Positions 1 through 18,318 of a DNA stretch of 64,000 nt are shown here, one piece after another. Positions within the stretch are counted from its first letter, which is position 1; each line of letters begins with the position of its first letter. The translations under genes and the position numbers were made by a program. The notes below the pieces were generated by a model, which saw nothing but the letters and a program-made list of their open reading frames with translations, was not told the origin of the DNA and searched no databases. This DNA comes from Cupriavidus sp. YR651. GTDB lineage: Bacteria > Pseudomonadota > Gammaproteobacteria > Burkholderiales > Burkholderiaceae. Location: positions 1 to 64,000 of the forward strand of contig NZ_FMYZ01000018.1 in the NCBI RefSeq assembly GCF_900101625.1. The letters are read 5' to 3'.

Positions 1-459
1 GGCACTGAATCGACACCGAAAGGAACGCCAGGCGCGACCTACGTATATGGACGCGACCAGGGCAGCCCACTGACCGTTTCCACACGGCCTCGGCCAGAAG
101 CGGACGGTCGACAGTTCCGTCAAGATGGCCGAAAATTGCTCTATTCCTATCAGCGGGGTCGGGCAGATATCTTGAGTGTTAAGTCAGATCTCATACGAGA
201 GAAGGTTCACGCAGCCGCTTATGCGGAAGCATATTCTGTCGGCCTCATGGCACTGGAAAATTCTCCGAACGACCAAGAAATAGCCGCCGCGTTGCACTAT
301 TTGACCGCAGAGCTACGTTGGGTCTGCATGGATCTGGCGTCGCGGAAGATTGACTACGGTCGCGAGTATTGCGTGCTTGAAAGTCTGCTGAGAGAAGCAA
401 GCAAACTTACCGGCCAAGACTTGTATGGGCAAAAATTAGTCTCGCCGCCCAGTCAGTAG
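1..459 (+). CDS. Hypothetical protein, 3' part (start lies upstream of window)
   Basis: The reading frame that ends at 459 is open back to the first base of the window, so the visible 152 codons are probably the C-terminal part of a longer gene. A TTG at 136 would give a 107-residue protein, but nothing resembling a ribosome site favours it. The first 45 residues are rich in G, T, P and R and look disordered. The rest is predicted mostly helical (for example IAAALHYLTAELRWVCMD) and contains two cysteines. No signal sequence or known motif is visible. I do not recognise the family. Confidence 0.5.
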   Translation, partial: GTESTPKGTPGATYVYGRDQGSPLTVSTRPRPEADGRQFRQDGRKLLYSYQRGRADILSVKSDLIREKVHAAAYAEAYSVGLMALENSPNDQEIAAALHYLTAELRWVCMDLASRKIDYGREYCVLESLLREASKLTGQDLYGQKLVSPPSQ

Positions 460-1076
460 TTGTAAGGCTTCAAAAAATGCGGCGCGAGTGTCCGCTTCGA
501 TGCAAGCCGACAGACGGCTAAGGGTCGTTCTGCGACGGTCGCGGATTCACAGCGGCCTCGGCCTGAGCGATTTCTATCCTAAGCTGGTAGCTACCAGCTA
601 TCATTGAAGACGGGAGACGCCCTGCTGCGAGGTCTCGCGCGTCACCCTGGGCTGGCTCCACCGCGTCCGGCCAGCGCCACCGCCCGACGGCAATCCCGTC
701 AAATAAGCTCCGCTCCCACACAAACCGCACGCCCGTGCCAACATTTGAAAACAGCTGGCGGTACGACATTTGCTTCCAGCCTAGACATTAAGTGTTGGCC
801 GTTTTTTCTAATGTCGTATTTGGTATTGCGGCAACGCTAACGACCAGGCACTACGATCCTGCGTATTCACGATCCCAGCGAAAGCACTTTCACGACCGGA
901 CAAATCGACGCGTCATTACCGCCGATGACTTGTCGGAAGACAGTGTGGAGGCATTGGCCAGATACATTGTGGTAACGCTGGTGCCCGGGAAGCCCGCCAA
1001 CCGCAGTTCGGATACCGCCATACGGCAATTGCCCTGCGAATAGTGACGCGGGAAGACAGCGCGATCGTGCCTGACG
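460..1076. other. Intergenic stretch without a convincing gene
   Basis: Several short frames cross this stretch on both strands, but none has a ribosome site together with plausible composition. The frame at 792-1043 has a short hydrophobic start followed by a stretch containing ALARYIVVTLVPGKPA, which could be the tail of a decayed gene. I cannot assign it. Confidence 0.4.
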
Positions 1077-2075
1077 TCATAGATTGACGCGGGCGGGTCG
1101 TTTGGCAAAACAGCCGGTCCCGATCGTGCGTAGCGCATCGCCGTCGCGTACGACGAAGAGTGCGTCGAGGCACCGCCGCTGAGCATAATCTCGCCCCGCC
1201 TGCGCACCGAGGACCAGCAAGGCTGTCGCATAGGCGTCCGCGTCCGCGCATGTCGGCGCAATTACCGTCACCGACGCAACGGAACTGCACAGTGGCGCCC
1301 CGGTTCTGGGATCCATTGTGTGCGAGACGCGCGCACCGTCGATGTCAGCCCAGTGGCGGTAGTCGCCGGACGTCGCGATAGCGGCGTTGCTCAGTTCGAT
1401 CACGCCCATTGCGGCGTGCCGCTCGTAGTCCGGCGTCTCAAGCGCGATCGCCCACGGCGACCCATCCGGTTTGCTTCCGCACGCGCGCATTTCGCCGTCG
1501 ATGCCGACAAGCCATGAGCCGATCCCGTGCTCACTCAACACGCGCGCGAGTTCGTCGACGCCGAATCCCTTTGCAATGCCGCACAGATCCAGCGCAACGG
1601 GTTCCCGCCTGCGCACCCGGCACCGTTGCACGTCCACGTCTATCAGTTCGCTCACAGACGGGCATGGGCTCGCCTGCAACGTGTCCACCGCGCCTGGACG
1701 ATGTGCACGCTGCTCGCCCGATGGCCCAAATCCCCACATACCCACAAGGTCGCCGACGCCGATGTTGAAGGCGTTGTGCGTATCGCTGCCAATCTCCAGC
1801 GCGCGTGCGAGTGTAGCCGCGAGATTCTTGGGCACCGGCACCCAGCAGTCCAGTTCAGCACGATTCAGCCGCGACAGGTCGGAGCTTTCCTTCCAGTTCG
1901 ACATCTGCTCGTCAACCGCGCCAACCGCCGCAGCGAGCCGCGCGGCCAGTTCTTTTTCATCCGTCTTCGGCGACGCATGGAAGGCCGCCGTGTAGCGGGT
2001 TCCCATGGTCGCCCCGCTCACGCGCCAAAGCTTGAGTTGCGTGGCTGGCAACGCCTCAATAGACATCTTCGACAT
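1077..2075 (-). CDS. apbE: FAD:protein FMN transferase (ApbE/Ftp family)
   Basis: ApbE enzymes transfer FMN from FAD to a Ser/Thr of a target protein, using Mg2+. Family hallmarks are in order: GATMGTRY at residues 21-28, a D-x-C-G-IAKGFGVD segment in the middle, GIDGEMRACG, SHTMDPRTGAP, and a CADADAYATALLVLG segment near the C-terminus. Length (332 residues) is normal for the family. No signal peptide or lipobox is visible, so this copy may act in the cytoplasm or its N-terminus may be misjudged. The start overlaps the end of the upstream flavoprotein gene by 20 bp, so the two are almost certainly co-transcribed. A likely acceptor, the DUF2271 protein, lies in the same run of genes. Confidence 0.93.
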   Translation of the reverse strand: MSKMSIEALPATQLKLWRVSGATMGTRYTAAFHASPKTDEKELAARLAAAVGAVDEQMSNWKESSDLSRLNRAELDCWVPVPKNLAATLARALEIGSDTHNAFNIGVGDLVGMWGFGPSGEQRAHRPGAVDTLQASPCPSVSELIDVDVQRCRVRRREPVALDLCGIAKGFGVDELARVLSEHGIGSWLVGIDGEMRACGSKPDGSPWAIALETPDYERHAAMGVIELSNAAIATSGDYRHWADIDGARVSHTMDPRTGAPLCSSVASVTVIAPTCADADAYATALLVLGAQAGRDYAQRRCLDALFVVRDGDALRTIGTGCFAKRPARVNL

Positions 2076-4263
2076 AGAGACCCTGCGCTCTCAGTTGTGC
2101 GACGGACAAGCCGGTATCCGTCAGAATACGTTCCCACGCCTGCGCGACACCCTCCGCCATCCTGCGGCCGCCGCACACCATGATTTGCGCGCCGTCCGTA
2201 ACCAGGGTGCGCAGGCTCTGTGTATCGGCGAGAAGGCGCTCCTGCACATAGCTCCGGCTTCCGGAACGTGAGAAGGCAGTCGTGAGTGCCTGCAGCCGCC
2301 GGTCGGCTACCAGGTGCCTGAGTTCGTCGCGGTACAGGAAGCCATCTTCAGCATTGCGCGCACCGAAATATAGGTGCATCGGACGACGTGCCGCGTTGTG
2401 CCGGATAAAACCGATCAGTGGACCAATCCCGGTGCCCGCCCCGATCAGGACCACGGGAGCACTCCCCGTGCCCGGTCGAAAGCGCGCGTTCGGCCGCATG
2501 AACGCCTCAATCGTTTCGCCAGGCTGCAGGCCTGTGAGATAGCGGGAGCAAACGCCGTTCGGATGACGCCGCACACAAATCTCGACCAGGCCGTCCGCCG
2601 CCGCGCTCGCGAGCGAATAGTACCGGGGCGAGGTGGCGCCCGGCGGCACGACGCCGAGCAGATCCCCGGTCTCGAACCGAGGCAGCCGCGGCCGCAGCGC
2701 GGTGGTCCAGGATCTCGCGCCCTCGGCAGACATGAAGCGCAGCACCGAAGTCATGTCCTCTGGATCCGCACCATAGTCGTCACGTGAAACGAGCTTGAGC
2801 GGTATCGTGGGTCGCAGCAATGGCGTGTAGCGGAAGTCGAGCGAAACACCGAGCCGTTCGGCGAGCCCCGCGCACCACTGCCGGAATTCGGGTTCAGACT
2901 GCCGGTCAACCGTGCCCAGATCGGTCAGTGCTTCTAGTCCTTTGGCGGTCAGTGCGTCATGAACCGTTCGCGCATAGCCGCAAAAATGAGGAAACTGGCG
3001 GTCGCCGAAGCCCAAGACCCCGAACACCACCCCGCCAGGGACCGTCAGGCGCTCGAGCTTCGGCAGGAATCGTATAGCGCTCTCCGGTGCACAGCCGTCA
3101 CCGGAGGTCGCAGTCAGGACCAGCAGATACCGCAGGCTGCGGCCGGCCGCAAGATCGTTCATCGGCGCAACATGCACGCGAAGGCCAGCCCGGGTCAGCG
3201 CTGCATGCAGCGCCGAAGCAAAGCCCCACGTGCTATTGCCCTCGGAGCCCACCAGCAATACAGTATCCGCGTCGCGTGCCGGCACGTTGCCGGCGAGCTT
3301 CGGCATGGCGCGTCGACGACGCAGCCACAGCAGCAGGCCGGATGCGGCCAGCAACGGCACCGACGCCGACGATGCGCCGAGGATCAGCCCAAGCCACCAC
3401 AGTCCTTCGCCCGTGTGCAGCATGCGGACAACCCCGTGCACACGTTGCCACGCGTCGGCCGGCTGAAAGGCAAGCCATCTGCCCGACGATGGATCGACAT
3501 AACCGGCGCCATCCGTCGTATTCACTTCGATGCTGCTGCTAGGGTCGGCCGCCTTGGCAAACGTCAGCTGACGCAGCCTGGAGACATCTATTGCCAGTGC
3601 GGGCATCTGCCGCAGTGGCATCGGGGGCGTGGTGATTGCCGGAACGCTGAGGGCGGGCTCCTGCGCGCCGCCTTCCGGGATCACGCCGAAAGTCGCCAAC
3701 GACATGACGACCCCGGTCATCGCTGACAGTGTGAGGCCGGCAAGCGCAGCGCGTGCAGTTTCGTTATGCAGCCGCTGCACCCCGTCACCCCGGATCGGGG
3801 CCAACATGTGCTTCCACCCGCCCATCCGGCGTGCGAGCAATACAAGTCCGGACAACGTGGCGAACAGCATGATGGCAGCAGTTGCACCGATTGCGATCCG
3901 CCCAGCATCACCGAGAAAGAACTTACGGTGCAGGTTCTTCAGCCAACGCTCGATAGGCGAGGGGCGATAGTCGCCGACAGCCTTGCCGGTAGCGGGATCA
4001 ATGATGGATGAACGCTGTTCACCGCCTGCCTGGTAGTACGCGATGATCGCCCCTGACGGCCTGCGTACGAGTGATTCGACGTCGGGCACCGAGGTGCTCA
4101 CGCGGCTGGCGAGCGTTGCGACGCTCAGCGGAGCCAGGCCTGGGCGGAAAGCACTCGCGTGCTCAAGTGCCGGATTCACTGATAACGCCGCGCCTGTCAA
4201 GGCGGCGATCGTCATCAGCAATGCGGCGATGAGACCGGGGATTGAATGGAGCTTGCGTAACAT
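2056..4263 (-). CDS. PepSY-type membrane flavoprotein reductase (PepSY TM + flavodoxin + FAD/NAD reductase)
   Basis: This 735-residue protein likely moves electrons from NAD(P)H across the inner membrane. The N-terminal half has PepSY-associated membrane helices at about residues 5-29, 120-145, 170-195 and 295-320. Next comes a flavodoxin-like domain beginning near LLVGSEGNSTWG. The C-terminal half is a ferredoxin-reductase module with RYYSLASA (FAD binding), VLIGAGTGIGPLIGF (nucleotide binding), YFGARN and the C-terminal YVEDVY. This resembles sulfite reductase alpha and NADPH-P450 reductase diflavin modules joined to a PepSY anchor. It sits between DUF2271 and apbE, consistent with a role in supplying electrons to a periplasmic flavinylated protein (inference). 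Confidence 0.88.
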   Translation of the reverse strand: MLRKLHSIPGLIAALLMTIAALTGAALSVNPALEHASAFRPGLAPLSVATLASRVSTSVPDVESLVRRPSGAIIAYYQAGGEQRSSIIDPATGKAVGDYRPSPIERWLKNLHRKFFLGDAGRIAIGATAAIMLFATLSGLVLLARRMGGWKHMLAPIRGDGVQRLHNETARAALAGLTLSAMTGVVMSLATFGVIPEGGAQEPALSVPAITTPPMPLRQMPALAIDVSRLRQLTFAKAADPSSSIEVNTTDGAGYVDPSSGRWLAFQPADAWQRVHGVVRMLHTGEGLWWLGLILGASSASVPLLAASGLLLWLRRRRAMPKLAGNVPARDADTVLLVGSEGNSTWGFASALHAALTRAGLRVHVAPMNDLAAGRSLRYLLVLTATSGDGCAPESAIRFLPKLERLTVPGGVVFGVLGFGDRQFPHFCGYARTVHDALTAKGLEALTDLGTVDRQSEPEFRQWCAGLAERLGVSLDFRYTPLLRPTIPLKLVSRDDYGADPEDMTSVLRFMSAEGARSWTTALRPRLPRFETGDLLGVVPPGATSPRYYSLASAAADGLVEICVRRHPNGVCSRYLTGLQPGETIEAFMRPNARFRPGTGSAPVVLIGAGTGIGPLIGFIRHNAARRPMHLYFGARNAEDGFLYRDELRHLVADRRLQALTTAFSRSGSRSYVQERLLADTQSLRTLVTDGAQIMVCGGRRMAEGVAQAWERILTDTGLSVAQLRAQGLYVEDVY

Positions 4264-4288
4264 CGGGCACCTCCTCGCCTGCCCATGA

Positions 4289-4756
4289 TTACAGTGAATA
4301 GCGGAACGACTTCACATAGCCACTCCCCTTGACCGTCTTGTTCGCGCCCGAGCTGGTCAACGGCATGACGACCTCGGACGGGTACTCCTTCATGTCCTCG
4401 ACCGCAGTGTCGATGTGGACCTCATATCCGGCGTCGAGCAGCGTGTCAGACAGATCCAACGTCGCACGCAGCGTCTTGCCTGCGCCGACGCTGGCGCCCG
4501 TAATGCCGTCTACCTTTGCGGTGCCGCCCGTGGCGCGATACCAGTCGCGCAGATGCCGGTAGTACTTGGTTTTGCGCCCTGCCACCCACAGGGTGCCCTG
4601 GTACCGTCCGGCGCGATCGGTGACATACATGGCAACGTAAGCGCCATCTCCCCCATAGTTCGACAACTGCGTTTCGAACGAGACCTGACGCGCGGATGCC
4701 AGTGAAGGCGCGGCAAGCGCGCCAGCAAGCATGGCGATCGGGAATGCGTGTTTCAT
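4289..4756 (-). CDS. Secreted DUF2271 protein with candidate flavinylation motif
   Basis: The ATG at 4756 is chosen because AGGAGA precedes it by 6 bases and it gives a clean signal peptide (cleavage after SLASA, about residue 22). The mature part matches the DUF2271 family (YVAMYVTDRAGRYQGTLWVA). Residues 83-89 read DGITGAS, which fits the D-G-x-(S/T)-(G/S)-A-(S/T) acceptor motif used by ApbE, making Ser89 a candidate FMN attachment site. The gene lies 25 bp upstream of the PepSY reductase and is co-directional with apbE. Secretion is well supported; flavinylation is inferred from motif and context. Confidence 0.88.
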   Translation of the reverse strand: MKHAFPIAMLAGALAAPSLASARQVSFETQLSNYGGDGAYVAMYVTDRAGRYQGTLWVAGRKTKYYRHLRDWYRATGGTAKVDGITGASVGAGKTLRATLDLSDTLLDAGYEVHIDTAVEDMKEYPSEVVMPLTSSGANKTVKGSGYVKSFRYSL

Positions 4757-4868
4757 CTGGATTCTCCTGATTCGGGCAAAAGGGGGGCTTCGCACCCATC
4801 GCATTGGCCTGCCACTGCTTCAGTAGGGTCAACGCCGATGAGGTACGCGGTGCGTCGGCAATAAGGGG

Positions 4869-5279
4869 TTAGCGGATCTGGACCTGGGGCTTCGCGTCTG
4901 GCGTCAGCAAGCCTTCGGGGGGGGCAGCCGGTGGCTTGCCAGTATTCGCGTCCGGCAGCCGTCCGCGTGCCCCGCCGTGGTCGGCGTCTTCACGCTTCAT
5001 GCGGACGACGTCAAGTGTGACGGGATCAAGTTTTGCCTTGAAACGCCGGCCATCGGCATCATGCCCCTTGACCTCGTAGCAACCGTCGTCGATCCTGAGC
5101 CTGTCGATCTGCCAGCCTTTTTGCTGCGCCATCGTCCGGACAGCGTCACGCGGCTTCCAGGCGTTGACTGGCGCCTCGCAATCGTCGCTGTCGTGCGCCT
5201 GTGCGGGATGGATGCCGAAAGCGCCGGCAAGTGCAAACATCGTGAGCGCTAGGCTTCCGGCTCTTCGCAGGTGTTTCAT
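4869..5279 (-). CDS. Secreted PepSY-domain protein
   Basis: The ATG at 5279 follows a GGGAG site and starts a signal peptide ending near HPAQA. The mature protein of about 105 residues carries one PepSY domain: a helix (RDAVRTMAQQKGWQIDRLRI) followed by strands containing YEVKGHDADGRRFKAKLDP. The tail is Pro-rich. Small PepSY proteins commonly sit beside PepSY-TM reductases or two-component systems and may bind or modulate them. This one is first in the minus-strand run and is divergent from the response regulator, so the 142-bp gap 5280-5421 probably holds promoters for both directions. Confidence 0.85.
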   Translation of the reverse strand: MKHLRRAGSLALTMFALAGAFGIHPAQAHDSDDCEAPVNAWKPRDAVRTMAQQKGWQIDRLRIDDGCYEVKGHDADGRRFKAKLDPVTLDVVRMKREDADHGGARGRLPDANTGKPPAAPPEGLLTPDAKPQVQIR

Positions 5280-5421
5280 GACCAATATCTCCCGTTCGCA
5301 TCTTGGACTCCACAATGCACCTGAAACCTGAAGCCAAGCTTGCGGGCACAAGGAATTTTCTTCATGTTCGCGACAGGTTCACATGGCAAAGTCACGCAAG
5401 ACACCCATCAGGAGGATCTTA

Positions 5422-6081
5422 ATGAGAGTCCTTCTCATCGAAGATGAGCCTCGGCTCGGGGAGGCCGTTCGCGACCAGATCGAGAAAGACGGTCATCCGA
5501 CCGACTTCGTGACCACCCTTGCTGAGGCCCGCCGACACCTTGCGGCGGCTAACTATGACCTGATCCTGCTCGATCTGCTGCTTCCCGACGGTAGGGGGCT
5601 CGACTTCCTGCGAGAGCTTCGCGCGGGTGGCTCGACCGTGCCCGTCATCATCCTGACAGCGCTCGATCAGGTATCGAACCGTATCGCCGGCCTGAACGCC
5701 GGCGCGGATGACTATCTCGTCAAGCCATTCGACCTGTCAGAGCTTTCCGCACGGGTGAGCGCGGTGTCACGCCGGTATTCTGGCAATCCGAATCCCCTCG
5801 TCAACCTCGGCGAACTGCGTATCGATACGGCGGCGCGCAGCGTGATGCGCGGTTCCGCGCGCATCGATCTGACGGCCAGTGAATGGGCGCTTCTCGAAGC
5901 GCTGATTCAGCATCCGGGGATGATCGTATCAAGGAGTCGACTAGAGGATCGCCTTTATTCCTTCAACGAGGAAATTGGCAGTAACACCATCGAGGTACAT
6001 ATGAGCCGGCTGCGCAAGAAGCTTGGTGTCGATGTCATCGAGACCTTGCGCGGGCTCGGCTATCGGTTGAAGCTGGACTGA
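5422..6081 (+). CDS. OmpR/PhoB-family response regulator (QseB/PmrA-like)
   Basis: The ATG at 5422 has AGGAGGAT just upstream; a longer frame from 5383 is unlikely. The receiver domain begins MRVLLIEDEP with acidic pocket residues E7, D8 and phosphoacceptor D51 (LLDLLLPDG), and switch residues in VIILTALD and the conserved Lys in YLVKPFD. A winged-helix DNA-binding domain follows (GSNTIEVHMSRLRKKL). The partner kinase starts 2 bp after the stop. The divergent PepSY/DUF2271/reductase/apbE run is the obvious candidate target. A tandem CCTGAA repeat at 5320-5332 in the shared promoter gap might be part of its operator, but this is weak. Confidence 0.93.
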   Translation: MRVLLIEDEPRLGEAVRDQIEKDGHPTDFVTTLAEARRHLAAANYDLILLDLLLPDGRGLDFLRELRAGGSTVPVIILTALDQVSNRIAGLNAGADDYLVKPFDLSELSARVSAVSRRYSGNPNPLVNLGELRIDTAARSVMRGSARIDLTASEWALLEALIQHPGMIVSRSRLEDRLYSFNEEIGSNTIEVHMSRLRKKLGVDVIETLRGLGYRLKLD

Positions 6082-6083
6082 CC

Positions 6084-7454
6084 ATGCTGCGCAGCCTGCA
6101 AGGCCGACTCGCGGTAGCCCTGGTTGCAGGGCTCGCTGTGCTGTCGCTCGCGGCCGCGGCCGCTTCATTTTACGTGCTGCGCCACGAAGTCGACCGGATG
6201 TCGGATAGTGCGTTGCAGGAAACGGCGCAGCGCCTGTTGCCGCTCGCCATCATGGATATCGTCAGGCGCGATTCGGATGGCGATGACGATAGCAGTCGCC
6301 GTATCGCAGCCGTTCGCCCACACGACGAATTGCTGACCTACGCGGTTCGCGATGATAGGGGCAGGCTGCTGCTGCGATCGCACGATGCCGATATGGCCGT
6401 CTTTCCGCCGGATCTGAAAGCGGGCTTCACTTCTACGGCGTCACACCGGATTTACGCCGAGCCTAGCTTGCAGGGAACGATCTCCCTGATGATCGCCGAG
6501 CCGCTCGCCACGCGCCGGCATGCAGTGATGGAAGCCGCGCTCGCGGTCGCCAGGGCCCTCATCCTGTTTCTGCCGGTGGGCCTGTTTGGCGTCTGGATAA
6601 TTGTCCGCACCGGGCTACGGCCAATTCGACGCTTCTGCGGCAGCATCGCTGCACGCGGCCAGAACGACCTGACACCGCTCGAAAAAAAGGAGCTGCCGAT
6701 GGAGGTCACTCCGATCGCCGACGCGGTCAATGACCTGATGGCTCGCCTTGACCGTGCCCTGGCTGCGGAGCGCGGTTTCACTGCCAATAGCGCGCACGAG
6801 TTGCGCACACCGATTGCCGCAGCACTCGCGCAGACACAGTGCCTCATGGCCGAAATGCCTTCCGCCGCCATGCGGGAACGCGTGCAGAATGTCGAAAGTG
6901 CCCTGCACACCCTGTCGCGGGTCAGCGAAAGGCTCATGCAACTCGCGAAGGCCGAAAATGGACGCGTGCTCGGAGACACGCCGCAGGACCTGCGCCCGGT
7001 ACTGGAGCTTGTCGTCGAGGATTTTCGGCGCGTTGCATCTGCAAAGCCGATCCGGCTTGACCTGCCCGACCGACCCGTGCCGTCGTGGATCGATCCGGAT
7101 GCATTCGCCATAGTCGTGCGCAATCTGGTTGAAAATGCGCTCAAGCACGGTGCGCACGAGCAACCGGTGAGGATTGCGCTGTCAAGTACCGGCACGCTCA
7201 GTGTGAGCAATCACGGACCGGTGCTGCCGGACGATGAACTCGAGCGCCTGACGAAGCCGTTCGAGCGTGGTGCAACCGCAGCCAAAGGCAGCGGGCTTGG
7301 CCTGGCGATCGTCGAAGCAATTGTCCGCGGGGCAGGTTCGGTCCTTACGCTGCGCTCGCCGGCGCCGGACTGGCAGGACGGACTGCAGGTGACCATCGAT
7401 GGTTTGCCGCTGGCGTCCGCGAAGCCGAAGCGCGAGAAAGCCGGTCCAGCGTAA
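6084..7454 (+). CDS. Membrane sensor histidine kinase
   Basis: This 456-residue kinase has two membrane helices (about residues 8-30 and 155-180) bracketing a periplasmic region of roughly 120 residues, a short HAMP-like linker, an H-box (ANSAHELRTPIAA), an N-box (NLVENALKHG) and a G-box (GSGLGLAIVEAIV). The layout matches QseC/PmrB-type kinases with a small periplasmic sensor. It begins 2 bp after the response regulator stop, so the pair is translationally linked. The signal is unknown; the neighbouring flavin/PepSY genes suggest redox or metal stress (inference). Confidence 0.92.
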   Translation: MLRSLQGRLAVALVAGLAVLSLAAAAASFYVLRHEVDRMSDSALQETAQRLLPLAIMDIVRRDSDGDDDSSRRIAAVRPHDELLTYAVRDDRGRLLLRSHDADMAVFPPDLKAGFTSTASHRIYAEPSLQGTISLMIAEPLATRRHAVMEAALAVARALILFLPVGLFGVWIIVRTGLRPIRRFCGSIAARGQNDLTPLEKKELPMEVTPIADAVNDLMARLDRALAAERGFTANSAHELRTPIAAALAQTQCLMAEMPSAAMRERVQNVESALHTLSRVSERLMQLAKAENGRVLGDTPQDLRPVLELVVEDFRRVASAKPIRLDLPDRPVPSWIDPDAFAIVVRNLVENALKHGAHEQPVRIALSSTGTLSVSNHGPVLPDDELERLTKPFERGATAAKGSGLGLAIVEAIVRGAGSVLTLRSPAPDWQDGLQVTIDGLPLASAKPKREKAGPA

Positions 7455-7588
7455 TCAGTTGGGACGGACGTGGCGCGGGACAACCCGGAATCGACTGACC
7501 GGTACCTGGATCGATCCCGCACGCTGGAAGCTACGCAACGGATGACATCCGCAAGCGCAGATGGCGAACAATTCATATGTCGGTCACA

Positions 7589-8160
7589 TCATGCATCGAC
7601 CGGATCGACGTGTGTCATGACGTTGAGAACGTCTTTGCGGCTCATCACACGCCGCCTCGCCTCAAGCGCGATCTCATGCCCCTCCTTGACTCTCGCTGCT
7701 GCATTGATGTCAAGATGGACGTCCACCAGGACCATGTCGCCCATCTTTCAGGTACGCACATCGTGCGCACCAAGCACGCCTGGCGTGCTCCAGCATGGTC
7801 TTGCGAATCGCTATTACCGTCTCCGCGTCGATCGCGCGATCCATCAAGTCACGCAGGGCGTCGCGGGAAAACTGCCAACCCATCCTTGTCACCATCAGGC
7901 CGACAACCAGTGCTGCGATCGGATCCAGCAGGTGGTAACCCCTCGCATTGCCCAGGATCCCTAGTGCCACCACCAGCGAAGACGCCGCATCCGACCGCAC
8001 GTGCCAGGCATTTGCAACCAGCATGCTCGACCTAACCCGTTCGGCGATCGCGAGCATGTAGCGGAACAACAATTCCTTGATCGCCGGCGCCCCCAGGGTA
8101 ACCCAGAGCCCGATCATCCGTACCGGTTGGATCGATTCCGGATGCTCGAGCTTTAGCACG
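7589..8160 (-). pseudogene. Cation diffusion facilitator (CDF) transporter, decayed
   Basis: The minus strand from 8160 down carries transmembrane and C-terminal parts of a CDF metal transporter: LEHPESIQPV, LLFRYMLAIAERVRSSM, AWHVRSDAASSLVVALGILG (with the H-x3-D metal site) and a further helix pair. After TMLEH the frame shifts by one base, continuing as PGVLGAHDVRT in another frame. An in-frame TGA follows, then KMGDMVLVDVHLDI and the cytoplasmic domain down to HVDPVDA and a stop at 7589. The gene thus has a frameshift, a nonsense codon and no N-terminus. Part of the missing N-terminus is found inverted immediately upstream (8161-8232). Confidence 0.85.
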
Positions 8161-8232
8161 GCGTTCCATTCCCTTTCGGATTTGGTTTCGGACTTCGTTG
8201 TCCTTTATGCCGGCCACCATAGCAAGAAGGGT
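8161..8232 (+). pseudogene. Inverted N-terminal fragment of the same CDF transporter
   Basis: The plus strand encodes HSLSDLVSDFVVLYAGHHSK, the signature around transmembrane helix 2 of CDF proteins, where His/Asp residues bind metal. The rest of the CDF gene is on the minus strand and begins immediately next to this fragment. The match is too specific to be an antisense coincidence. A short inversion with breakpoint near 8160 is the simplest explanation. Sequence after KKG no longer resembles a CDF, so the other breakpoint is near 8232. Confidence 0.75.
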
Positions 8233-8376
8233 CCCAGCGAAACCAATGTTAGTGCCAACACGGCACCTCAACCAACCCAGGCCTACAGCGGCACCATGGG
8301 AAACAGCCGGTCATCGCTAGTCCGCGGTGCCAGAGAAATCGCAGCCGCTGTGGGGCACTTCAACCGATGCGGTGGA

Positions 8377-9564
8377 CTAGGTGCCGGCGCGCACCTTGAC
8401 ACGCTGGCCATCGCGAAGGCTGCTTTGCGGGTATCGAACCACCTGTACGCTGTCGGCCAAGGAAGAAAGCAGTTCGACCTCATCCGAATTCCGGTGACTA
8501 ATTCCGACCTCCGTCCTGCGTACCCGGCCGCCCTCAAGCCGAAACACACACCATTGGTCATTCCCGCAGCGGAATAGCGAACTGGCGGGCAATTTTCTTG
8601 CATGATCGGTCTGCCACAGGACAACGCTTGCGATGACGCGAAATCCGTCACCCAACCCGGAGGGGGGATCAATAACGTCTATAATCACCCGGGTTCGCTT
8701 TTCTTCTATGCCCAGGGCGGATACTTTGGTGAACGCATGGGGCTCCACGAGCCGAACCTCGCCTTGTACCACTTGCTCGCCGCCCCAGCCTTCCAGCCTC
8801 ACGGGCATCTGCGGCCGCACCTTGACGGCTTCCGTTGACAGTAGCTCGACCACGATCTCCAGGTCATGTGGATTGCCGATCGTCAGCAGGGGCTCGCCCG
8901 CAGCGACAACCCGCTCGCTGCGCTCCGGAATGGATAATACGGCTCCGGCAAACGGTGCATGAACCGGCACGACCGGCCAGCGCCCACGTTTGTGCTCCTT
9001 GATGGCCAGCAGGCCGGCCTCCGCCACGCGGACCTCCTGCAAGGTGGTGCTGGCGCGGGCGCGCGCCGCGGCGAGATCATTGCCGGCAGTAGTGGTGGCG
9101 TTGGCGGCCTGCTCCCCTGCTTGAGGAGACAGGAAGCGCTCCCGCACTAGCCTTTCGACACGCTGAAGTTCGCGCTGCGCCTGGGCGTGGTCTTCGGCGG
9201 CATGCCGGACGCGTTCCTGCGCCTCACGGTATGCCGCACGCGCCGCAGCCACCCTTGCCTCGGCTTCCTCGCGCTCCTGGGCCGTCAGTGGCAGTGGCGC
9301 AAGTTCCGCCACCACTTCGCCTTCATGCACCCAGTCGCCCTCCCGCATGCTGAGCCGCATCAGTCTTCCGGCGACAGGCGCGGCAACAACGTAGCGCTCC
9401 TTGCTGCGGGTCTCGCCCTCCTCGGTTGTGATGACTGCCATCGCGCCGACGGACGGCAGTACGATCTCGACATCCACTGGCTCCGGCATCAGAAGATAGC
9501 CAAGGCCTGCCGTAACCACGACAGCGGTCACAATCACGAACGACTTGCCTCTTGACCACCGCAT
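8377..9564 (-). CDS. HlyD-type periplasmic adaptor (membrane fusion protein) of ABC exporter
   Basis: One N-terminal membrane helix (VIVTAVVVTAGLGYLLM) anchors a 395-residue adaptor. A first lipoyl half-motif (AAPVAGRLMRLSMREGDWV) and a second (VHAPFAGAVLSI) flank a long Ala/Glu/Arg-rich coiled coil (about residues 95-185). A beta-barrel and membrane-proximal domain follow. Such adaptors join an inner-membrane exporter to an outer-membrane channel. The start lies 4 bp after the permease stop, so it is the third gene of an ATPase-permease-adaptor operon. No outer-membrane partner is adjacent. A decayed relative of its C-terminus lies at 41171-41420. Confidence 0.9.
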   Translation of the reverse strand: MRWSRGKSFVIVTAVVVTAGLGYLLMPEPVDVEIVLPSVGAMAVITTEEGETRSKERYVVAAPVAGRLMRLSMREGDWVHEGEVVAELAPLPLTAQEREEAEARVAAARAAYREAQERVRHAAEDHAQAQRELQRVERLVRERFLSPQAGEQAANATTTAGNDLAAARARASTTLQEVRVAEAGLLAIKEHKRGRWPVVPVHAPFAGAVLSIPERSERVVAAGEPLLTIGNPHDLEIVVELLSTEAVKVRPQMPVRLEGWGGEQVVQGEVRLVEPHAFTKVSALGIEEKRTRVIIDVIDPPSGLGDGFRVIASVVLWQTDHARKLPASSLFRCGNDQWCVFRLEGGRVRRTEVGISHRNSDEVELLSSLADSVQVVRYPQSSLRDGQRVKVRAGT

Positions 9565-9568
9565 CGCC

Positions 9569-11935
9569 CTACTCTCTGGTTTTCAGCACTGCGATCAGGT
9601 CCAGCCGTCGCAGCCGCTGCTGGACAAGCAGTCCGGCCATGGCCGCGGCGCCGATAGCTGGCAGCAATGCCTGCACCAAGGTCTGCCTGCTCAGGCTGAG
9701 CGGGATGCGAAAGGCTTCGCGGTCGAACATGGGGACGAGCAAGGCGCACAAGCCATAGCCCACGGCGATGCCGACCGGCAAGGACAAGGCCGTCAGAAGG
9801 AATTGCTCGCCGAGCAGAATCCCCGCAACCTCCTGCCGGGAAAAACCGAGTACCCGCAGACTGGCCAGTTCATTCCCGCGCTCGGACAGCGCAATGCGAA
9901 AGTTGTTGTAAACGACTCCAACCACGATGACCGTGGCGAAGGCCGCCAGCACCAGACTGGAAACGACGAACGTCCGATCGAGCGTTTGTCGGATGCTGGA
10001 GATCACTGAGGAGCGTATGATCACGGAACTCACTACGGGCAGGACCTTGAACCTTTGGTAAAGGGATTGTGCCTTGTTGGCGTCGGCGCGGAGGTACGCC
10101 CCACTGATTGTGGGCGCCTCGCCCAGCAAGCGGGGCAACACGTTGTAGTCCACGTAGGCAGCGGTACCTAGAAGGTCGTCGACGACATCCGCGACCCGCA
10201 TGACCAGACTAATACGGCGGCCCTCAAGCACTTCAACCTCAACAAGCTCGCCCACAGATAAGCCCAGCTCTGCCGCCAGTCTTGCCGAGAGCACAAGCCC
10301 GTCCGGCGCAACCGGATGACGTCCGGAGGTGTAGCCCGCAATCTCACGCAGCTCGCCCGTCGCTTCTAGACCTGTGATTTCAGTGCGTTTGGAGCGATTA
10401 GTCCTGCGCAACCATACCGGCACGTTTCGAAATGGCTCGACTCGCAGGACGCCCGGCATTTGGGCCAGGTCATGGACGACCCGCAGGGGGCGCGGCTCGT
10501 TGAAGATCAACGTCACATCTTCATGCTGAACGTGGCCGAACTGGAGATTGAGAATCGTATTGACACCATCGAGCCCGAACCGTCCGACGATGGCTAAACC
10601 CACGGCCAGCGCGATGGCGGCGATGGACATCAAAGCCTTGCCCGGCCTGCGAACCAGATTCCGCAAAATCAGGCGTAGGGGAATCGGCAGCGCCGCCAGG
10701 AGGCCTGCACGGTCGAGAATGCTCGCCCGGAAGCCGAGGGGTAACTCGGGACGCATCGCTTCAACCGGTGACAAGCAGCCTACGCGCAGGGCGGCTGATG
10801 CACTGCCCACGGAGGCCGCACACACACTCGCAATGGCGGCGCCGACCACGATCCCGGGGGAGACTTCTGCGTTTAGCATGGGGAAATGGAAATACTGGCG
10901 GTATAGGCCGACCAGTAATTTCTCCAGATACAAGCCACCGGAAACGCCGAGCAGCACCCCAAGCAATACCGTCGCCAGGCCAAGAAACACATATTGAATA
11001 GCCACGGTCCCGGTGCTATAGCCAAACGCCTTCAGCAAACCGATCTCAGCCCGATGCAAGGTGACAAGGCGACTCAGCAACGTATACAACAGGAACGCCG
11101 CCACCGCCAGGAATAGGGCTGGGACATAGTTGGCGATCACGCGGATCTCGTCGAGTTCATCGCTAAGGAATCGATTCGACTGTTGCAGCGTCCGTTCATA
11201 CGCCCCGAGGCAGCCGTAACGGAGAAGCATCCGGTCCAGCCTTGTGACTACCTCCTTGGGGCGGGCCTCGGCATCAAGCAGGATGGCCAGATCATTGAAG
11301 CCCCCCTCCATATCGAAGGCGGATTCCATGGCGGCGTGCCCCATCCACATGACGCCGAATCGGCGGCTGTCCGGAAACACCATGCCCTGCCCTACCTCAT
11401 AGACGTACTCTGGTGACACTCCGAGGCCAGTGATCGTCAACCGGCGGGCATGACCATTGAGTATGGCTGTTACGTGCCCCCCGACATCCAGTGCATTAGC
11501 ATTTGCGAAGGCAACACTAAGGACGACTTCGTCGTCGCGAGAGGGGTCGGGAAGTCGGCCTCGTGAAACCCATAGCGCATTAATGCCGGCCTTGCCAGCG
11601 GCTGGCAGGGAAATTAGGCGCAGCGTGGCCGGCTCGCGCGTGCCCGGTACATCCGCATTGACGTCATGGACGATGCGCATGACGATTTCCCGCACGCCCG
11701 GGATGGCCCGAATGGGTCTTTCGAGGGAAACCGGCGCACGTTTCACATTGGCAAACACGTCGGCAAAGCGCTGCATCTCGTAGTAGCGGTCCTTGGCGGA
11801 TGCAAGAGAGCGCCATGCCCCATTCATCGCGACCAGCACGGCTATGCCGCATGCGACGACCAGCGCCGCGGCAGCAACCTGGGCGCGAAGCCGCCACAAC
11901 TCACGCAATAGCATGGTGAAGCGCGCTGCTACCAT
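9569..11935 (-). CDS. FtsX-family ABC transporter permease
   Basis: This 788-residue permease has an N-terminal membrane helix, a large periplasmic domain, a three-helix FtsX domain near residues 265-395, a second helix (about 435-460) with another periplasmic domain, and a second FtsX domain at the C-terminus ([20 protein letters not shown] is typical). The duplicated 4+4 layout resembles LolC/E-like and antimicrobial-peptide exporters rather than the single-unit MacB. Its start overlaps the ATPase stop by 7 bp. Probable function is extrusion of a substrate from membrane or periplasm; the substrate is unknown. Confidence 0.9.
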
Positions 11936-12645
11936 CGCAGCTCCGATGGAATTGCCCGGGTCGCATGCTGCTCAATCTCCGTGATACGACCACTGCTGAT
12001 ATGCAGCACGCGGTCAGCCATTGCAGCTATGGCTGTGTTATGGGTGATCACGGCAGTGATTGCCCCCTGCTCCGTATTTACGCGCTGAAGAACCTCAAGT
12101 ACAAGCCTCCCAGTGCTGTAGTCCAGCGCTCCAGTCGGCTCGTCGCATAGAAGAATGTCTGGCTGTTTGACGACGGCACGGGCAATGGCGATGCGCTGCT
12201 GTTCTCCGCCGGAGAGTTGCGCTGGAAAGTGGTCCTTGCGCGCCGATAGCCCTACCAACTCAAGGGCATCGAGCGGATTCATGGGATGCTCGGCGATATC
12301 GGCCACCAGTGCGACGTTTTCCATGGCCGTCAAGCTCGGAATCAAATTGTAGAACTGAAATACAAAGCCGACGTGTTCGCGGCGATAAAGGGTAAGGCCT
12401 GCGTCATCGGCGTGTGCCAGGTCATGGTCCCGGTATTCGACGGTTCCGGACGTCGGGCGGTCCAGCCCGCCAAGAATATGCAGCAACGTCGATTTTCCGC
12501 TTCCGGATGCGCCCAACAGGACGACAAACTCCCGGTCATAAAGGTCGAGGTCCACACCGTTCAGCGCGTGGACGACTACCTCGCCCGTTTGGTACGTCTT
12601 GTTGACGTCGCGCACGCGAAAGAGCGGACTGCGATCATTGCGCAT
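11929..12645 (-). CDS. ABC transporter ATP-binding protein (MacB/LolD class)
   Basis: Walker A is GASGSGKST (about residues 45-53), the Q-loop is in [18 protein letters not shown], the signature is LSGGEQQR and Walker B is [12 protein letters not shown], all intact. The FxxxNLxPxLTAxENV pattern is typical of LolD/MacB ATPases that pair with FtsX-type permeases. I chose the ATG at 12645; the frame also allows a TTG start at 12675, without a better ribosome site. This is the first gene of the exporter operon. A broken usp gene ends about 50 bp upstream. Confidence 0.92.
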
Positions 12646-12696
12646 AACAGAGCGGGCCTCATTACTGGAGGTCAAACCGTATGGGATTCCCAGGCA

Positions 12697-12986
12697 TTAG
12701 CTACTGGCAGCACCGGTCTTCACCAGAATGACTGGACATGGAGCATTGGAACAGCCGCTGCGCTCAGGATCTCAGTGGCGGAGCGCATCGTCCGGCCACT
12801 CTCGTCCGAGTGGCATGCTGCAAGGTCAGCGGTGCCGATGTAGGACTTCACCTCTCCCGACACGTCTGGCATGCAGTGAGCGAGGTGTACGAGCAATGGC
12901 CCCTCCAGCGATTTTCCGGCCGCCACACATTGGGCCGCCGCATCGCCGTACGCTGACCCATCGGCCGCAAGTACAATGGATTTCAT
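12697..12986 (-). pseudogene. Universal stress protein, internally deleted
   Basis: From the ATG at 12986 the frame reads MKSIVLAADGSAYGDAAAQC and then GEVKSYIGTADLAA, a Usp N-terminal half of the single-domain type. After EILSAAAVP the frame runs into an early stop. In another frame the sequence continues APCPVILVKTGAASS and a stop at 12697, which is the normal Usp C-terminus. Roughly 50 codons are missing, including the ATP-binding G-x2-G-x9-G-S loop, so the product cannot be functional. Confidence 0.8.
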
Positions 12987-13634
12987 CACATACTCCTTGG
13001 ATCCCGAGGACAGCAACGATCGCATGTTGCGCCGCACAGCATTGCGAAACGCGACGGATCGCAGGTTTCCGCGGGCCTACCTCACGGCCATGCTCGTAAG
13101 GTAGGTGATGAATCATCCACGGACTTGGGCTGGATCAAAGATATAAGCTGCGTGGTTGTAGATCAGCCGAGCTTTACCCAGTCGGACGGTCAAGAAACCC
13201 TACGCTTGATAGCCATCCAATCGCCACCTGAGGGGGCGTCTGAGGGACGAGCCACGGTTCTGCGCCAGCCTCCGGCGATCCCACGAAGGGAGTTGACGCT
13301 GAATGCAAACCGTTGGCAGTTTGAGTCAGCCGGTCAGATCGCTGATGATCGACGTGACCGTAAAATCACCCTTCGACCCACGACAGCGCCAAGGGCGGTT
13401 CCCATCCTGAAATGGTTGATGATCCTCAACCATTGGAACGCTGACGCTGTCGGGGCGGGGACATTCAGGACTCGCTTGCCCTTGATCCAGCGCAAAGCAG
13501 TCACGGCCCTTCATTACTATTCACTATCCAAGTGCCCACTTTCGGGCGAACCGTGTACCCGATAGATTTGGCCTCTGGCACGGCGTGCAATAGCGCGTTG
13601 TACCGCTGGTCTCCCCAACAGCATCGCCCGCAGC
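12987..13634. other. Intergenic stretch without a convincing gene
   Basis: A 146-codon frame at 13125-13565 is open, but its composition (R, P and T rich, no domain pattern) suggests chance. A weak FNR-like site (TTGGG-N4-ATCAA) ends near 13136, upstream of the broken usp, with two mismatches in the left half. I see nothing else definite. Confidence 0.35.
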
Positions 13635-14216
13635 ATGTCCAAGCGCATCGTGATCATCCAGGGGCATCCAGACCCGTCGGGCCATCACTTGCTGCATGCG
13701 TTGGCCAACGCCTACGCTCTAGGTGCGACCACGGCGGGACACGACGTACGGCGCATCGAGGTGGCGAAGCTCGACTTCCCGCTGCTTCGCAAGCAGGCTG
13801 AGTTCGAGACTGGCGCCTTGCCTCCTGCTTTGGAGCAGCCAAGGGAGGACATGCGCTGGGCGGACCATTGGGTCTTCCTTTTTCCGCTATGGCACGGAAC
13901 CATGCCGGCACTGTTAAAAGGGTTTCTCGAACACATCTTTCGGCCCGGCTTTGCCATGGATTACAAGAAGAAGGGATTTCCAAAACGACTGCTCGTCGGC
14001 CGCTCGGCACGCATCGTGGTGACCATGGGAATGCCCGCGCTGCTATATCGCTGGTACTTTGGCGCATACGGAGTCCGCGGCTTCGAGCGCAGTATGCTGA
14101 GTTTCGCCGGGATCAAGCCGATCCGCGAAAACCTCTATGGGCTAACCTTTGCAAACGAGAGCAGACGTGCCCATTGGATGGAGAAGATGCGTGCATATGG
14201 CGCGAGCGGGACCTGA
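13635..14216 (+). CDS. NAD(P)H-dependent flavin oxidoreductase (quinone reductase/KefF-like)
   Basis: The 193-residue protein has a flavodoxin-like fold of the NQO1/MdaB/KefF group. The N-terminus KRIVIIQGHPDPSGHHLLHA binds the FMN/FAD phosphate. WADHWVFLFPLWHGTMPALLKGF is the diagnostic segment of the family, and a GFPKRLLVGRSARIVVTMG strand follows. It probably performs two-electron reduction of quinones or similar electrophiles in the cytoplasm. The ribosome site is weak. A solute-binding-protein remnant begins about 90 bp downstream. Confidence 0.88.
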   Translation: MSKRIVIIQGHPDPSGHHLLHALANAYALGATTAGHDVRRIEVAKLDFPLLRKQAEFETGALPPALEQPREDMRWADHWVFLFPLWHGTMPALLKGFLEHIFRPGFAMDYKKKGFPKRLLVGRSARIVVTMGMPALLYRWYFGAYGVRGFERSMLSFAGIKPIRENLYGLTFANESRRAHWMEKMRAYGASGT

Positions 14217-14306
14217 CCGGAGCGTGGCGGACACATGCGTTGGATGTCCACTTCCTGGACGGTTGCCCCTCGTTGTGGTGGCTCCCTGCCACCGGCCGAG
14301 GGCTTG

Positions 14307-14460
14307 GCGCCGCCCACGTCGTGGCAGGATCTGGCCGATCCCAAGCACACGAACAAGGTGGTGCTCCAGTCGATTCCGTCGTCGACATTCGGGTTGCATG
14401 GCTTCCTGATGCTCAACCGCATCAAGGGGGGCAACGAGTCGAACGTAGAGCCGGGTTTAG
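14307..14460 (+). pseudogene. Remnant of extracellular solute-binding protein (PotD/AfuA-like)
   Basis: About 50 codons read PPTSWQDLADPKHTNKVVLQ, then SSTFGLHGFLMLNRIKGG and a matching N-V-E-P tail. This is the pattern of periplasmic binding proteins for iron or polyamine ABC importers (P-T-S-W-x-D-L-x-D-P-x-x-x-x-K-V, then a YGLH-like segment). There is no signal peptide, and neither end of the domain is present, so it is an internal fragment left by deletion. Confidence 0.65.
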
Positions 14461-14835
14461 TGTGGTCGAATACGAGCGCGGTACGCATCTCGGCGTGACT
14501 AGCAACTTATCGAATCAGGTTGCAGATTCAACTGGTCGATGCAGCAGATTGATGGAATGGTTCGGCCGGAGAAGTCCTTCGGCGCCTCAGGTGTTCCATG
14601 CCGGTCAAGATCCGTCGGGTCATCCCTCAAACATTTTGAGCCCTTACGCATGAAGGCAAACCGATAACGCTTTCGACAATGATTTTCGTTACGCCTCATT
14701 GAAGCGATTCGCCACTCGAAAGTCGTCTCGGTAAAACACTCCAGTTATCCCATAGACCCCTTACGGAACGGGAATCCGCTCATTCGATGTTCTTCCGAAG
14801 TTCGCGTGCCGCGCACTCAAGCGATGTGCGGTGGT

Positions 14836-15140
14836 GAGTAGGCCAGAGGGATTTCGCCTCTAGCCTCTCGCAGAACCGTACGTGAGACTCTCGCCTCATA
14901 CGGCTCCCATTATCCAACCTTCGTCCCAACGACACGCCAGTGTACGAACAATCGGGGGTAGACAGCCGCCATTTTGCGTAGCCGTTCAACACTACACCTT
15001 TTGTGCCGCGACAGTGTCTTGTACTTCCGTCGGGCCCATCGCTCGAGCTTCCGATCCACATATTGGAAGATCCCATGCATGGCCGTTCGAGGCCTTCTCC
15101 CATCTTTGATACAGCATCACAAGCTTTCGCTTGTGTTCGT
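14836..15140 (-). mobile_element. 3' remnant of a group II intron (maturase C-terminus plus domains V/VI)
   Basis: On the minus strand one frame encodes IFQYVDRKLERWARRKYKTL and then an R-L-F-V-H-W stretch ending GTKVG-stop. This is the X/endonuclease-proximal end of group II intron reverse transcriptases. Directly after the stop comes GAGCCGTATGAGG...CACGTACGGTTC, the catalytic domain V hairpin, and then a domain VI-like stem ending near CCTACTCACC. The reverse-transcriptase catalytic part (YADD) and the intron 5' half are absent, so the element is dead. Confidence 0.8.
14873..14906 (-). ncRNA. Group II intron domain V
   Basis: The 34-base segment folds as the conserved intron hairpin. The 5' strand contains the AGC catalytic triad within GAGCCGTATGAG, and the 3' strand ends CTCACGTACGGTTC. 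Position just downstream of the maturase stop is as expected. Confidence 0.75.
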
Positions 15141-15438
15141 GACACACCACAGAACTAGATTTTCATCCGCGAGCGCGAGAAAATTGCTCTACGATGATTA
15201 TCGTAAAGACGTGTTAACCGAAGTGGCCAGATGCTCGCGTGGCGAGAAGATATGAGTTCGGGTTGGATTCCATGTGAATATCGCACCTGATGTTTCCCTG
15301 GTGATTCGGCCTAAGGCAAGAAATTCTATGATGAGAAAGTTTATAATTCGCATTCTCGGCGCGCAATAACGTCCGAGCTCGAATCCGGCGTGGAATGACA
15401 CGCCATCTCCATGAACGAATACTTCAAAAAGTGTACAT

Positions 15439-16002
15439 ATGGGTGCCAATAATTTCCGGACTGCAGTTTTCGTAGCGATGATCTTGGCATCCTCGATTTG
15501 TACGGGCCAAGCATATCCTCATTATGAAACATTAGCAGAATTGGAGGGCTCCGCCGCAACTGGTCCTAAGCTAACTGCGAAGGTGTTGTCCGATGTTGCT
15601 CAATTCTGCTCATCATTCGATCGCACTCTCGAAATATTTGCCAGAAATTCTGTATTAATGTGGAATAATCGCCACGCCGAATATATTAAAACTTCGAACC
15701 ACTATTGGAGGCGTCTAGAGAGCTCGGCAAAAAATGCTACTGATCCGGAGGAGCGTGAAGCTTTAGAATTATTCTTACATGATGACTATTTACGCGCAGT
15801 AAAATCCGCTTACTATATTACAGTCCAACCAATTCGAGAGGCAGTTAGTAAATACGGTGCTTCTATGGCTTTATCAAAGTGCAGGCAATATTTTGAGGAT
15901 GTCGACCGAGGAATGTATGATATTAAGAACCGCGATCTCGAGTTGGCGTCATTTCTAGATTATGGCATACCTAGACCTCCACAAAGTCCTAAGGATAGAT
16001 GA
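15439..16002 (+). CDS. AT-rich secreted hypothetical protein
   Basis: This 187-residue protein has a signal peptide ending near CTGQA (about residue 25), so the mature product is exported. The rest is mainly helical, with cysteines in QFCSSFDRTLEIF and LSKCRQYFEDVD that could form one disulfide. Codon use is strikingly AT-rich (tta, aat, ata) against the GC-rich surroundings, indicating recent transfer. No strong ribosome site precedes the ATG. It sits between a dead group II intron and an unassigned stretch. I do not recognise the family. Confidence 0.65.
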   Translation: MGANNFRTAVFVAMILASSICTGQAYPHYETLAELEGSAATGPKLTAKVLSDVAQFCSSFDRTLEIFARNSVLMWNNRHAEYIKTSNHYWRRLESSAKNATDPEEREALELFLHDDYLRAVKSAYYITVQPIREAVSKYGASMALSKCRQYFEDVDRGMYDIKNRDLELASFLDYGIPRPPQSPKDR

Positions 16003-16469
16003 GGATATCTAGGGATGGCCTGGATGCTGCCGATATTGTCTTTCAACTGCGGCAGCGTCTCGTGTGGTGAGTATTTCGAATGCGCGTACGATGTTCTGTA
16101 TTGTCTGACGCGAGTTTACGAAACCGATATTCTGTCCCAAAATCCAGGGAATGCCCCGGCGATCTAGCAGCAGCTGCGCTCACCTTCAAGACGGCGGTTT
16201 CCGGTCTGCGCGGTCATTTTCCATTAGCTTGAAGCGAATCGCCATTTGACTGTTTTGGGCGAGCTTGGCTCTTTTCCACTAGCCTCCCTGCCTCCGGCAG
16301 GCAGATTCGTGCGTCACGGCTTGATACCAATTAAATTGAACGATAAAGAGCGATTCGCGCTGTCACAATGTGCTGTCGGATTATTAATTGTTTTCTTGTC
16401 TCCCATTAAGGCCAGCCACACGGTCGTCTCGGCGGTCTTTCGCCCGCCGTCCGCCACGAGGAGTCAGTC
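16003..16469. other. Intergenic stretch, possible insertion-element debris
   Basis: No gene is convincing. Positions 16229-16246 repeat 16 of 18 bases of 14699-14716 in the same orientation, and TTTTCCATTAG/TTTTCCACTAG occurs twice nearby. This could be the worn end of an insertion sequence. A GAGGAG ribosome site for the next gene is at 16458-16463. Confidence 0.35.
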
Positions 16470-18154: not shown

Positions 18155-18318
18155 GGAACGCCCCACAGAAAAGGGCAGCGGCTGCGAGCTCGGCCATCCA
18201 AACGAACGCAAAACTGACACGTCTCATTGTGGAGCAATGGCCGGCCAGCCTATTCCATCTAGCCAAAATACCGGGAACTTTCGAATTCTATGGTCGTTTG
18301 CCACGAGTGGAGATTGCA

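Follow-up and report, generated by a model that had tools for sequence, protein, structure and literature searches.

Where would a secreted protein receive its covalent flavin mononucleotide (FMN) when the transferase encoded beside it has no export signal? This question is raised by a locus of Cupriavidus sp. YR651 located in contig NZ_FMYZ01000018.1 (assembly GCF_900101625.1), of which positions 1 to 64,000, called here the window, were analysed. On the minus strand, the locus encodes a flavin adenine dinucleotide (FAD):protein FMN transferase, ApbE, without leader (1077..2075, 332 aa; PF02424, E=6.8e-75), a membrane reductase (2056..4263, 735 aa) and a secreted DUF2271 protein (4289..4756, 155 aa; PF10029, E=1.3e-38) with Ser89 as predicted FMN acceptor. 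The module is of a kind already known: a 2021 paper already reported both the flavinylation of DUF2271 by ApbE and PepSY/NAD clusters that include DUF2271 (PMC8238504; here and below, published systems are described after excerpts of the cited papers). The new point is the conserved pairing of a leaderless ApbE with a signal-bearing target. The best explanation, which we regard as rather probable from the sequences, is a mobile redox cassette in which ApbE would load DUF2271 with FMN in the cytosol, before export of DUF2271 by the Sec pathway.

Absence of a leader in the cassette ApbEs

A total of 111 loci was examined and assigned by eye to two architectures: 32 loci belong to type B, that of the window, and 71 to type A (PepSY-DUF2271-DUF4198-ApbE-reductase). 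The eight loci set aside are two type B duplicates, a Bacteroidota plasmid, four ApbE-DUF2271 fusions and the locus L140. A second draw gave 80 named loci of the window's type, some of them from the same genomes.

The sequence-only reading had seen no export signal in ApbE and had left this absence as a possible error of the start site. The absence is true and the error is not: a mis-annotated start was rejected because upstream of the ATG at position 2075 the frame continues for no more than 5 codons (337 aa from stop to stop, against 332 aa) and because this ATG lies within the neighbouring gene, 20 nt inside the reductase gene. The lack of a leader is a conserved trait of the cassette ApbEs. 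In 63 of the 71 named loci with a cassette ApbE, the ATG has precisely this 20-nt offset into the reductase gene; the offset is 29 nt in three, and five have no ATG there; the nine other named loci comprise seven from Gammaproteobacteria and two short contigs. The nearest solved relative of ApbE by sequence is 5mgy (E=1.4e-57), and the residues D163, K169, D280 and T284 are kept in 71 of 72 aligned rows.

Leaders were sought upstream of the MGT core of ApbE, placed by alignment: the 55 preceding residues were scored for an uncharged hydrophobic stretch of 12 residues. Such a stretch is missing from 28 of the 29 type B ApbEs and the remaining one scores 0.54, so that no leader was detected in this set (0/29). 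In the second draw, none of the 71 ApbEs reaches 1.6 and the highest score is 0.3; the N-termini of five rows (L219, L232, L238, L255 and L274, the first being a contig-end fragment) were judged by eye and show no leader. Of 36 control ApbEs from the surveyed genomes, 31 score at least 1.3 and have lipoprotein or RR-type leaders. An earlier version of the score gave at least 1.6 for 74 of 76 DUF4198 proteins, 23 of 33 PepSY_2 proteins, 8 of 89 ApbEs and none of 34 response regulators. The type A ApbEs (n=53) are less clear-cut, 11 of them scoring at least 1.6. In nine type A ApbEs, the hydrophobic patch is short (1.6-1.9) and in many cases located at a conserved RVLIP box; in our judgement it is not a leader. 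For the ApbE of L146, the score of 2.19 comes from residues upstream of the likely start.

In a tree of 115 ApbEs calculated after removal of the leader region, the 29 type B sequences form one clade (SH-aLRT 100). The type A sequences are placed next to it with a support of 0 and include one long-branch control, and the lipoprotein ApbEs are localized just outside. On this tree, obtained by a quick method without bootstrap, the leader state as labelled by us changes five times. The chances appear even to us that these ApbEs represent a cytosolic lineage, neighbouring the lipoprotein ApbEs and dedicated to a Sec-secreted substrate that would receive FMN before export.

Export of the leaderless ApbE itself by a non-classical route, followed by action in the periplasm, is very unlikely. 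Its sole arguments are the location of the presumed target and the fact that ApbEs are mostly secreted (PMC12052999). The cassette ApbEs (29 and 71, in overlapping sets) are devoid of Sec, lipoprotein and Tat-like (twin-arginine translocation) leaders, and action in the periplasm would require a supply of FAD there.

The acceptor motif of DUF2271

ApbE flavinylates a DUF2271 protein at the motif [S/T]GA[S/T], as shown in another species with the cognate ApbE (Meheust et al. 2021, PMC8238504). In the window, the sequence DGITGAS, already proposed as an FMN acceptor motif from the sequence, corresponds to residues 83-89 (codons 4490..4510, minus strand); this position is borne out when residues are counted from the start conserved in the alignment, ATG 4756, and not from the longer frame at 4804. 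Conservation of the motif in DUF2271 proteins beside apbE had been named as the point on which the reading could fail. The outcome is favourable for the window's type, as the pattern xGx[ST]GAS is present in 32 of 32 type B loci and in 80 of 80 loci of the second collection, some genomes being common to both. The DUF2271 proteins of type A, in contrast, comprise variants: beside leaderless ApbEs at L078, L080, L081, L083, L086, L087 and other loci, GA[ST] is replaced by GPT (in others by SPT or SAT), so that the published acceptor motif may be too narrow. A plasmid record of Methylocella tundrae (L075) has DUF2271 annotated with about 860 aa, and two separate pieces of it match; in another isolate of this species (L249), the match spans residues 1-155 in one piece.

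The protein had also been described as secreted, in agreement with the leader MKHAFPIAMLAGALAAPSLASA at its N-terminus. With the earlier score, 97 of the 111 open reading frames (ORFs) matching DUF2271 reach at least 1.6. No twin-arginine pair was found within the first 15 residues of 45 type B rows, of which 36 are informative and nine begin after residue 5. Tat export of the folded flavoprotein was rejected for the window's type on the strength of these 36 N-termini. Within the window's family, rows of type A often start with MRR, so Tat is possible there.

The predicted structure of DUF2271, calculated from 45 sequences, is a beta-rich domain (mean pLDDT 76) that gave no match at E 0.001 or better in a structure search. 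Residues 83-85 of the motif have a pLDDT below 50 and belong to a loop modelled with low confidence, which is compatible with a flexible and accessible acceptor site.

A further possibility is that DUF2271 is not the target of the leaderless ApbE, which would instead modify a cytosolic protein. Such pairs have precedents: the cytosolic ApbE of Klebsiella pneumoniae, which like that of the window has no signal peptide, acts on a soluble fumarate reductase (PMC12052999), whereas the presumed target in the window has a signal peptide. The motif D-x(1,2)-[ST]GA[ST] was searched for in the partner families. It is conserved in none of those scanned, with three scattered matches in 159 PepSY-match ORFs and none in the PepSY_2, DUF4198, ferric-reductase-like, VIT and P-type ATPase matches. 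A second FMN acceptor among the partner proteins was rejected on this result. Set against the motif carried by every DUF2271 of the window's type examined, these scans of the partner families make a cytosolic target distinctly improbable.

ApbE content of the genomes

Among 74 genomes searched, 45 gave a single ApbE match. In 40 of these 45, the single match is a module ApbE without clear leader (38 of type A and two of type B); in the five others, it is either a leader-bearing ApbE-DUF2271 fusion or a lipoprotein encoded at another place. In two further genomes (G007 and G022), the sole ApbEs are the two module ApbEs. No exported ApbE was found in 42 of the 74 genomes, with six borderline type A ApbEs (G007, G009, G022, G103, G205 and G233); for the type B genomes with a cassette ApbE (19 of the 74), none was found in four. 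Of 50 named genomes, 46 have a cassette ApbE, which is the sole match in 18 (the completeness of the genomes is not given). As no exported ApbE was found in these 42 and 18 genomes, none can act in trans there. From the leaderless ApbE, the signal-bearing DUF2271 and the lack of a detected exported ApbE in many genomes, we infer flavinylation in the cytosol followed by Sec export.

The alternative of a modification after export, in the periplasm, by another ApbE that is exported, the leaderless ApbE having a different job, must be weighed here. The genome of the window possesses an exported ApbE, with a twin-arginine-like leader, that adjoins an apparent nosZ gene (L003, contig C41; frame reading without family search), so modification in trans is possible for this strain. 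Furthermore, the cassette is devoid of apbE in all seven gammaproteobacterial named loci and in a Raoultella plasmid, and the best ApbE is lipoprotein-like in the four such gammaproteobacterial genomes searched; periplasmic modification is thus possible within the substrate family. The occurrence of apbE-less cassettes in hosts with an exported ApbE indicates two settings for the DUF2271 family, one with a cytosolic ApbE of its own and the other with an exported ApbE of the host. Against this alternative stand the genomes without a detected exported ApbE and the conserved gene overlap, which ties ApbE to the cassette. We consider it unlikely, yet it is the strongest of the three alternatives for the role of ApbE.

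Several other observations, together with the nosZ-linked ApbE and the apbE-less cassettes, weigh against cytosolic loading or narrow its scope. The leader test is a hydrophobicity score and not SignalP, and five of the 36 control ApbEs likewise have no leader. The type A locus L092 encodes a plain lipoprotein ApbE, an exception among the DUF2271 partners. Finally, the ApbE of the published test pair (A. ursilacus) is described as signal-peptide-truncated (PMC8238504), so that not all DUF2271 partners are leaderless. The excerpts of that paper contain no discussion of a leaderless or cytosolic ApbE with DUF2271, and among the titles and abstract beginnings of the open literature no report was found of cytosolic loading or of a leaderless ApbE with a secreted DUF2271.

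The membrane reductase and the presumed electron acceptor

A membrane protein combining PepSY, flavodoxin and ferredoxin reductase-like parts had been predicted, and all the domains were found in one ORF of 735 aa: PepSY_TM (3e-39), Flavodoxin_1 (PF00258, 1e-12), FAD_binding_6 (PF00970, 9e-5) and NAD_binding_1 (PF00175, 3e-14). The C-terminal part resembles cytochrome P450 reductase and CysJ. The residues His6, His112, His166 and His283 are invariant in 72 of 72 aligned rows. Like the FoxB-type reductases (7ABW, PMC11334425), the protein of this locus has a PepSY_TM domain and four conserved histidines, the number expected for two hemes; it differs from them by its C-terminally fused diflavin reductase; 7ABW is absent from the best 60 of 129 PDB matches.

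The literature describes 3220 PepSY-like clusters, 2833 of them with DUF2271, and 1077 PepSY genes with an NAD-binding domain (PMC8238504). As in these systems, the window combines a PepSY_TM protein clustered with ApbE and a flavinylation substrate, the DUF2271 motif and, as in a subset of them, a cytosolic NAD(P)H input domain (PF00175/PF00258/PF00970); VIT neighbours are present at some loci. Every part of a PepSY-like DUF2271 system being present according to Pfam domains and motif, the earlier proposal of a flavinylation system is supported. In contrast to these systems, the window has no DUF4198 partner, which is common in them without being defining and is listed at no window-type locus, but it has a divergent two-component system, a PepSY_2 gene and a leaderless ApbE. 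The Caulobacter cluster CC_3059-3063 / CCNA_03155-03159 (PMC3751524, PMC12004947) likewise contains DUF2271, ApbE, a PepSY-family membrane protein and a flavoprotein reductase, and differs by its DUF4198 architecture, its separate flavoprotein and its regulation by Fur. This cluster is iron- and Fur-regulated (PMC3751524) and insertions in it lower fitness under EDTA (PMC12004947).

From these domains and conserved residues, the following scheme can be proposed. While still in the cytosol, the DUF2271 precursor would receive on Ser89 the FMN that the leaderless ApbE takes from cytosolic FAD; it would then leave, flavinylated, via Sec and work in the periplasm. The PepSY protein would pass electrons from NAD(P)H through its FAD and FMN domains to hemes on the four invariant histidines and, once reduced, would reduce the periplasmic FMN-DUF2271. 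The latter would in turn reduce ferric iron most likely, or another metal, as suggested by the neighbouring genes and the literature.

Iron is thus a first guess for the electron acceptor. VIT and ferric-reductase-like genes are each present at 11 of the 32 type B loci and at none of the 71 type A loci, where the flanks are often shorter than the plasmid-derived type B flanks, so that absence there weighs less. This iron role is by association and is weakened by the fact that VIT is a neighbour at no more than 11 of 32 loci in the first set and 19 of 80 in the second. The module could instead serve copper, another metal or envelope redox stress, which would change the last step only and is compatible with cytosolic loading. 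This alternative is possible though doubtful. In its favour, a remnant of a CDF-family gene and genes at the HlyD/FtsX positions lie alongside the cassette in the window, and a PepSY_TM protein has been linked to copper (PMC13038864); the VIT and ferric-reductase-like neighbours at part of the loci and the Fur control of the Caulobacter relative, of the other architecture (PMC3751524), speak against it.

The remnant (7595-8241) consists of pieces of a CDF gene, two adjoining minus-strand segments being in different frames and accompanied by a short inverted piece. On plasmid p1 of C. pinatubonensis, the cassette is accompanied by an intact CDF gene and by the gene of a P-type ATPase that has a hemerythrin domain; this domain occurs in some P1B-5 ATPases, one of which is linked to Ni and Fe transport (PMC9388753). 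Of the 15 loci labelled P1B, several give weak or partial matches and six have the ATPCP motif with a strong score. In positions 1-20000 of the window, tblastn detected no P-type ATPase, only the CDF pieces, and such an ATPase was rejected as part of the window's own cassette. Positions 8377-12675 contain a HlyD-like gene and two further minus-strand ORFs that are 91% similar in DNA to the HlyD, FtsX-like and ABC genes adjoining the cassette on p1.

The two-component system and the control region

The locus is composed of six adjoining genes, four minus-strand ORFs and a divergent plus-strand pair, and their positions and Pfam domains agree with the arrangement previously proposed. The fourth minus-strand ORF encodes a small secreted PepSY_2 protein (4869..5279, 136 aa; PF13670, E=9.8e-25). 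It is separated by a control region (5280..5421) from the plus-strand genes of an OmpR/PmrA-like response regulator (5422..6081, 219 aa from ATG 5422) and a sensor histidine kinase (6084..7454, 456 aa). PepSY_2 is conserved at 29 of the 32 type B loci, and the response regulator and the kinase at 30 each; ApbE is found at 29 and PepSY at 31. The type A loci (n=71) comprise ApbE at 53, DUF4198 at 70, a response regulator at one and a kinase at none.

The stretch between the response regulator and PepSY_2 genes was compared in 30 loci. In 21 of them it contains CTGAC-N6-CTGAA followed by the inverse TTCAG-N6-GTCAG (at most 2 and 3 mismatches); 100 dinucleotide shuffles gave this pattern in 0.56 loci on average and in 2 at most, a control that understates chance since the pattern was read from the same sequences. 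The nine loci without it are eight Cupriavidus copies, including the window, and Xanthobacter L064. The control region of the window is degenerate and, read by eye, contains an arm TTCAT-N6-GACAG and CCTGAA half-sites. Control of the module by the divergent system, as previously suggested, is therefore plausible in view of the pair present at 30 of 32 loci and of the operator shared by 21 of 30, while no recognisable operator exists in the window. The response regulator and the kinase, perhaps with PepSY_2 as accessory, would switch the module on.

BqsPQRS and DbfQRS (PMC12714742, PMC4682146, PMC12666569) likewise combine a two-component system with a small PepSY protein of the periplasm, and the three genes occur together in the window. 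The BqsR operator TTAAG-N6-TTAAG (PMC4682146) has the same layout of pentamers spaced by 6 bp as that of the relatives of the window, with a different pentamer. The excerpts on these systems mention no flavinylation module, unlike the window, and the likeness is one of layout. In Vibrio, the small PepSY protein regulates the adjoining system, which gave no iron response (PMC12714742); BqsS senses Fe(II) (PMC12666569).

Distribution and mobility

DUF2271 exceeds the cut-off in 65 of 398 genomes drawn from the phylum. In the survey of the genus (48 genomes including that of the window), a high-scoring type A-like DUF2271 is present in 45 and a type B-like one in seven (about 129-133 bits), the type being assigned by score and, for part of them, by the fetched context. 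The genome of the window itself has, on another contig, a second module, of type A (L043, contig C42, about 258730-263000) whose ApbE has no convincing leader.

Eight Cupriavidus and Pandoraea loci were compared and share a block of 6.3-6.7 kb, from about position 1100 to 7434-7771 of the window, with an identity of 88.8-92.9%; the DNA blocks common to these loci give the cassette an approximate extent of 1102..7486. Outside this block, the flanks of L213, L214 and L216 have no other match above 150 nt with the first 20 kb of the window. The best plasmid match of DUF2271 is from C. pinatubonensis (95.5% over the domain). DUF2271 matches 97 plasmid records, of which 71 are predicted conjugative and 38 belong to the single genus Pseudosulfitobacter. 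Thirteen plasmid regions were opened. Copies on plasmids were seen in alpha-, beta- and gammaproteobacteria, those on conjugative plasmids being from alpha- and gammaproteobacteria. Three of the opened plasmids are betaproteobacterial, and their typing is non-mobilizable or mobilizable. On the shared block and the plasmid copies, the cassette probably moves horizontally, a part of the explanation favoured above as a whole.

The conjugative Raoultella plasmid pRAO166a (L071) carries VIT in place of apbE, and antibiotic resistance genes at about 11 kb from DUF2271. Plasmids of Salmonella, Klebsiella and Enterobacter have DUF2271 matches of the same identity as that of pRAO166a. No relative was found by a pattern scan of viral_contigs and neither DUF2271 nor ApbE has a PHROG match; viral carriage was rejected on these negatives.

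Significance of the proposed cytosolic flavinylation

Cofactor-loaded periplasmic proteins go through Tat, according to the textbook rule. If loading in the cytosol is true, Sec would carry a cofactor-bearing preprotein, in departure from this rule, and a covalently flavinylated protein would be a test of what Sec can carry. Flavinylation by ApbE is usually described as periplasmic and as needing FAD outside the cytosol; periplasmic FAD would no longer be needed. The signal-peptide filter of the published flavinylation census (PMC8238504) would miss such ApbEs. For the bacteria that possess it, the cassette is a candidate mobile metal reductase module under two-component control, adjoined by iron-transport genes at part of the loci.

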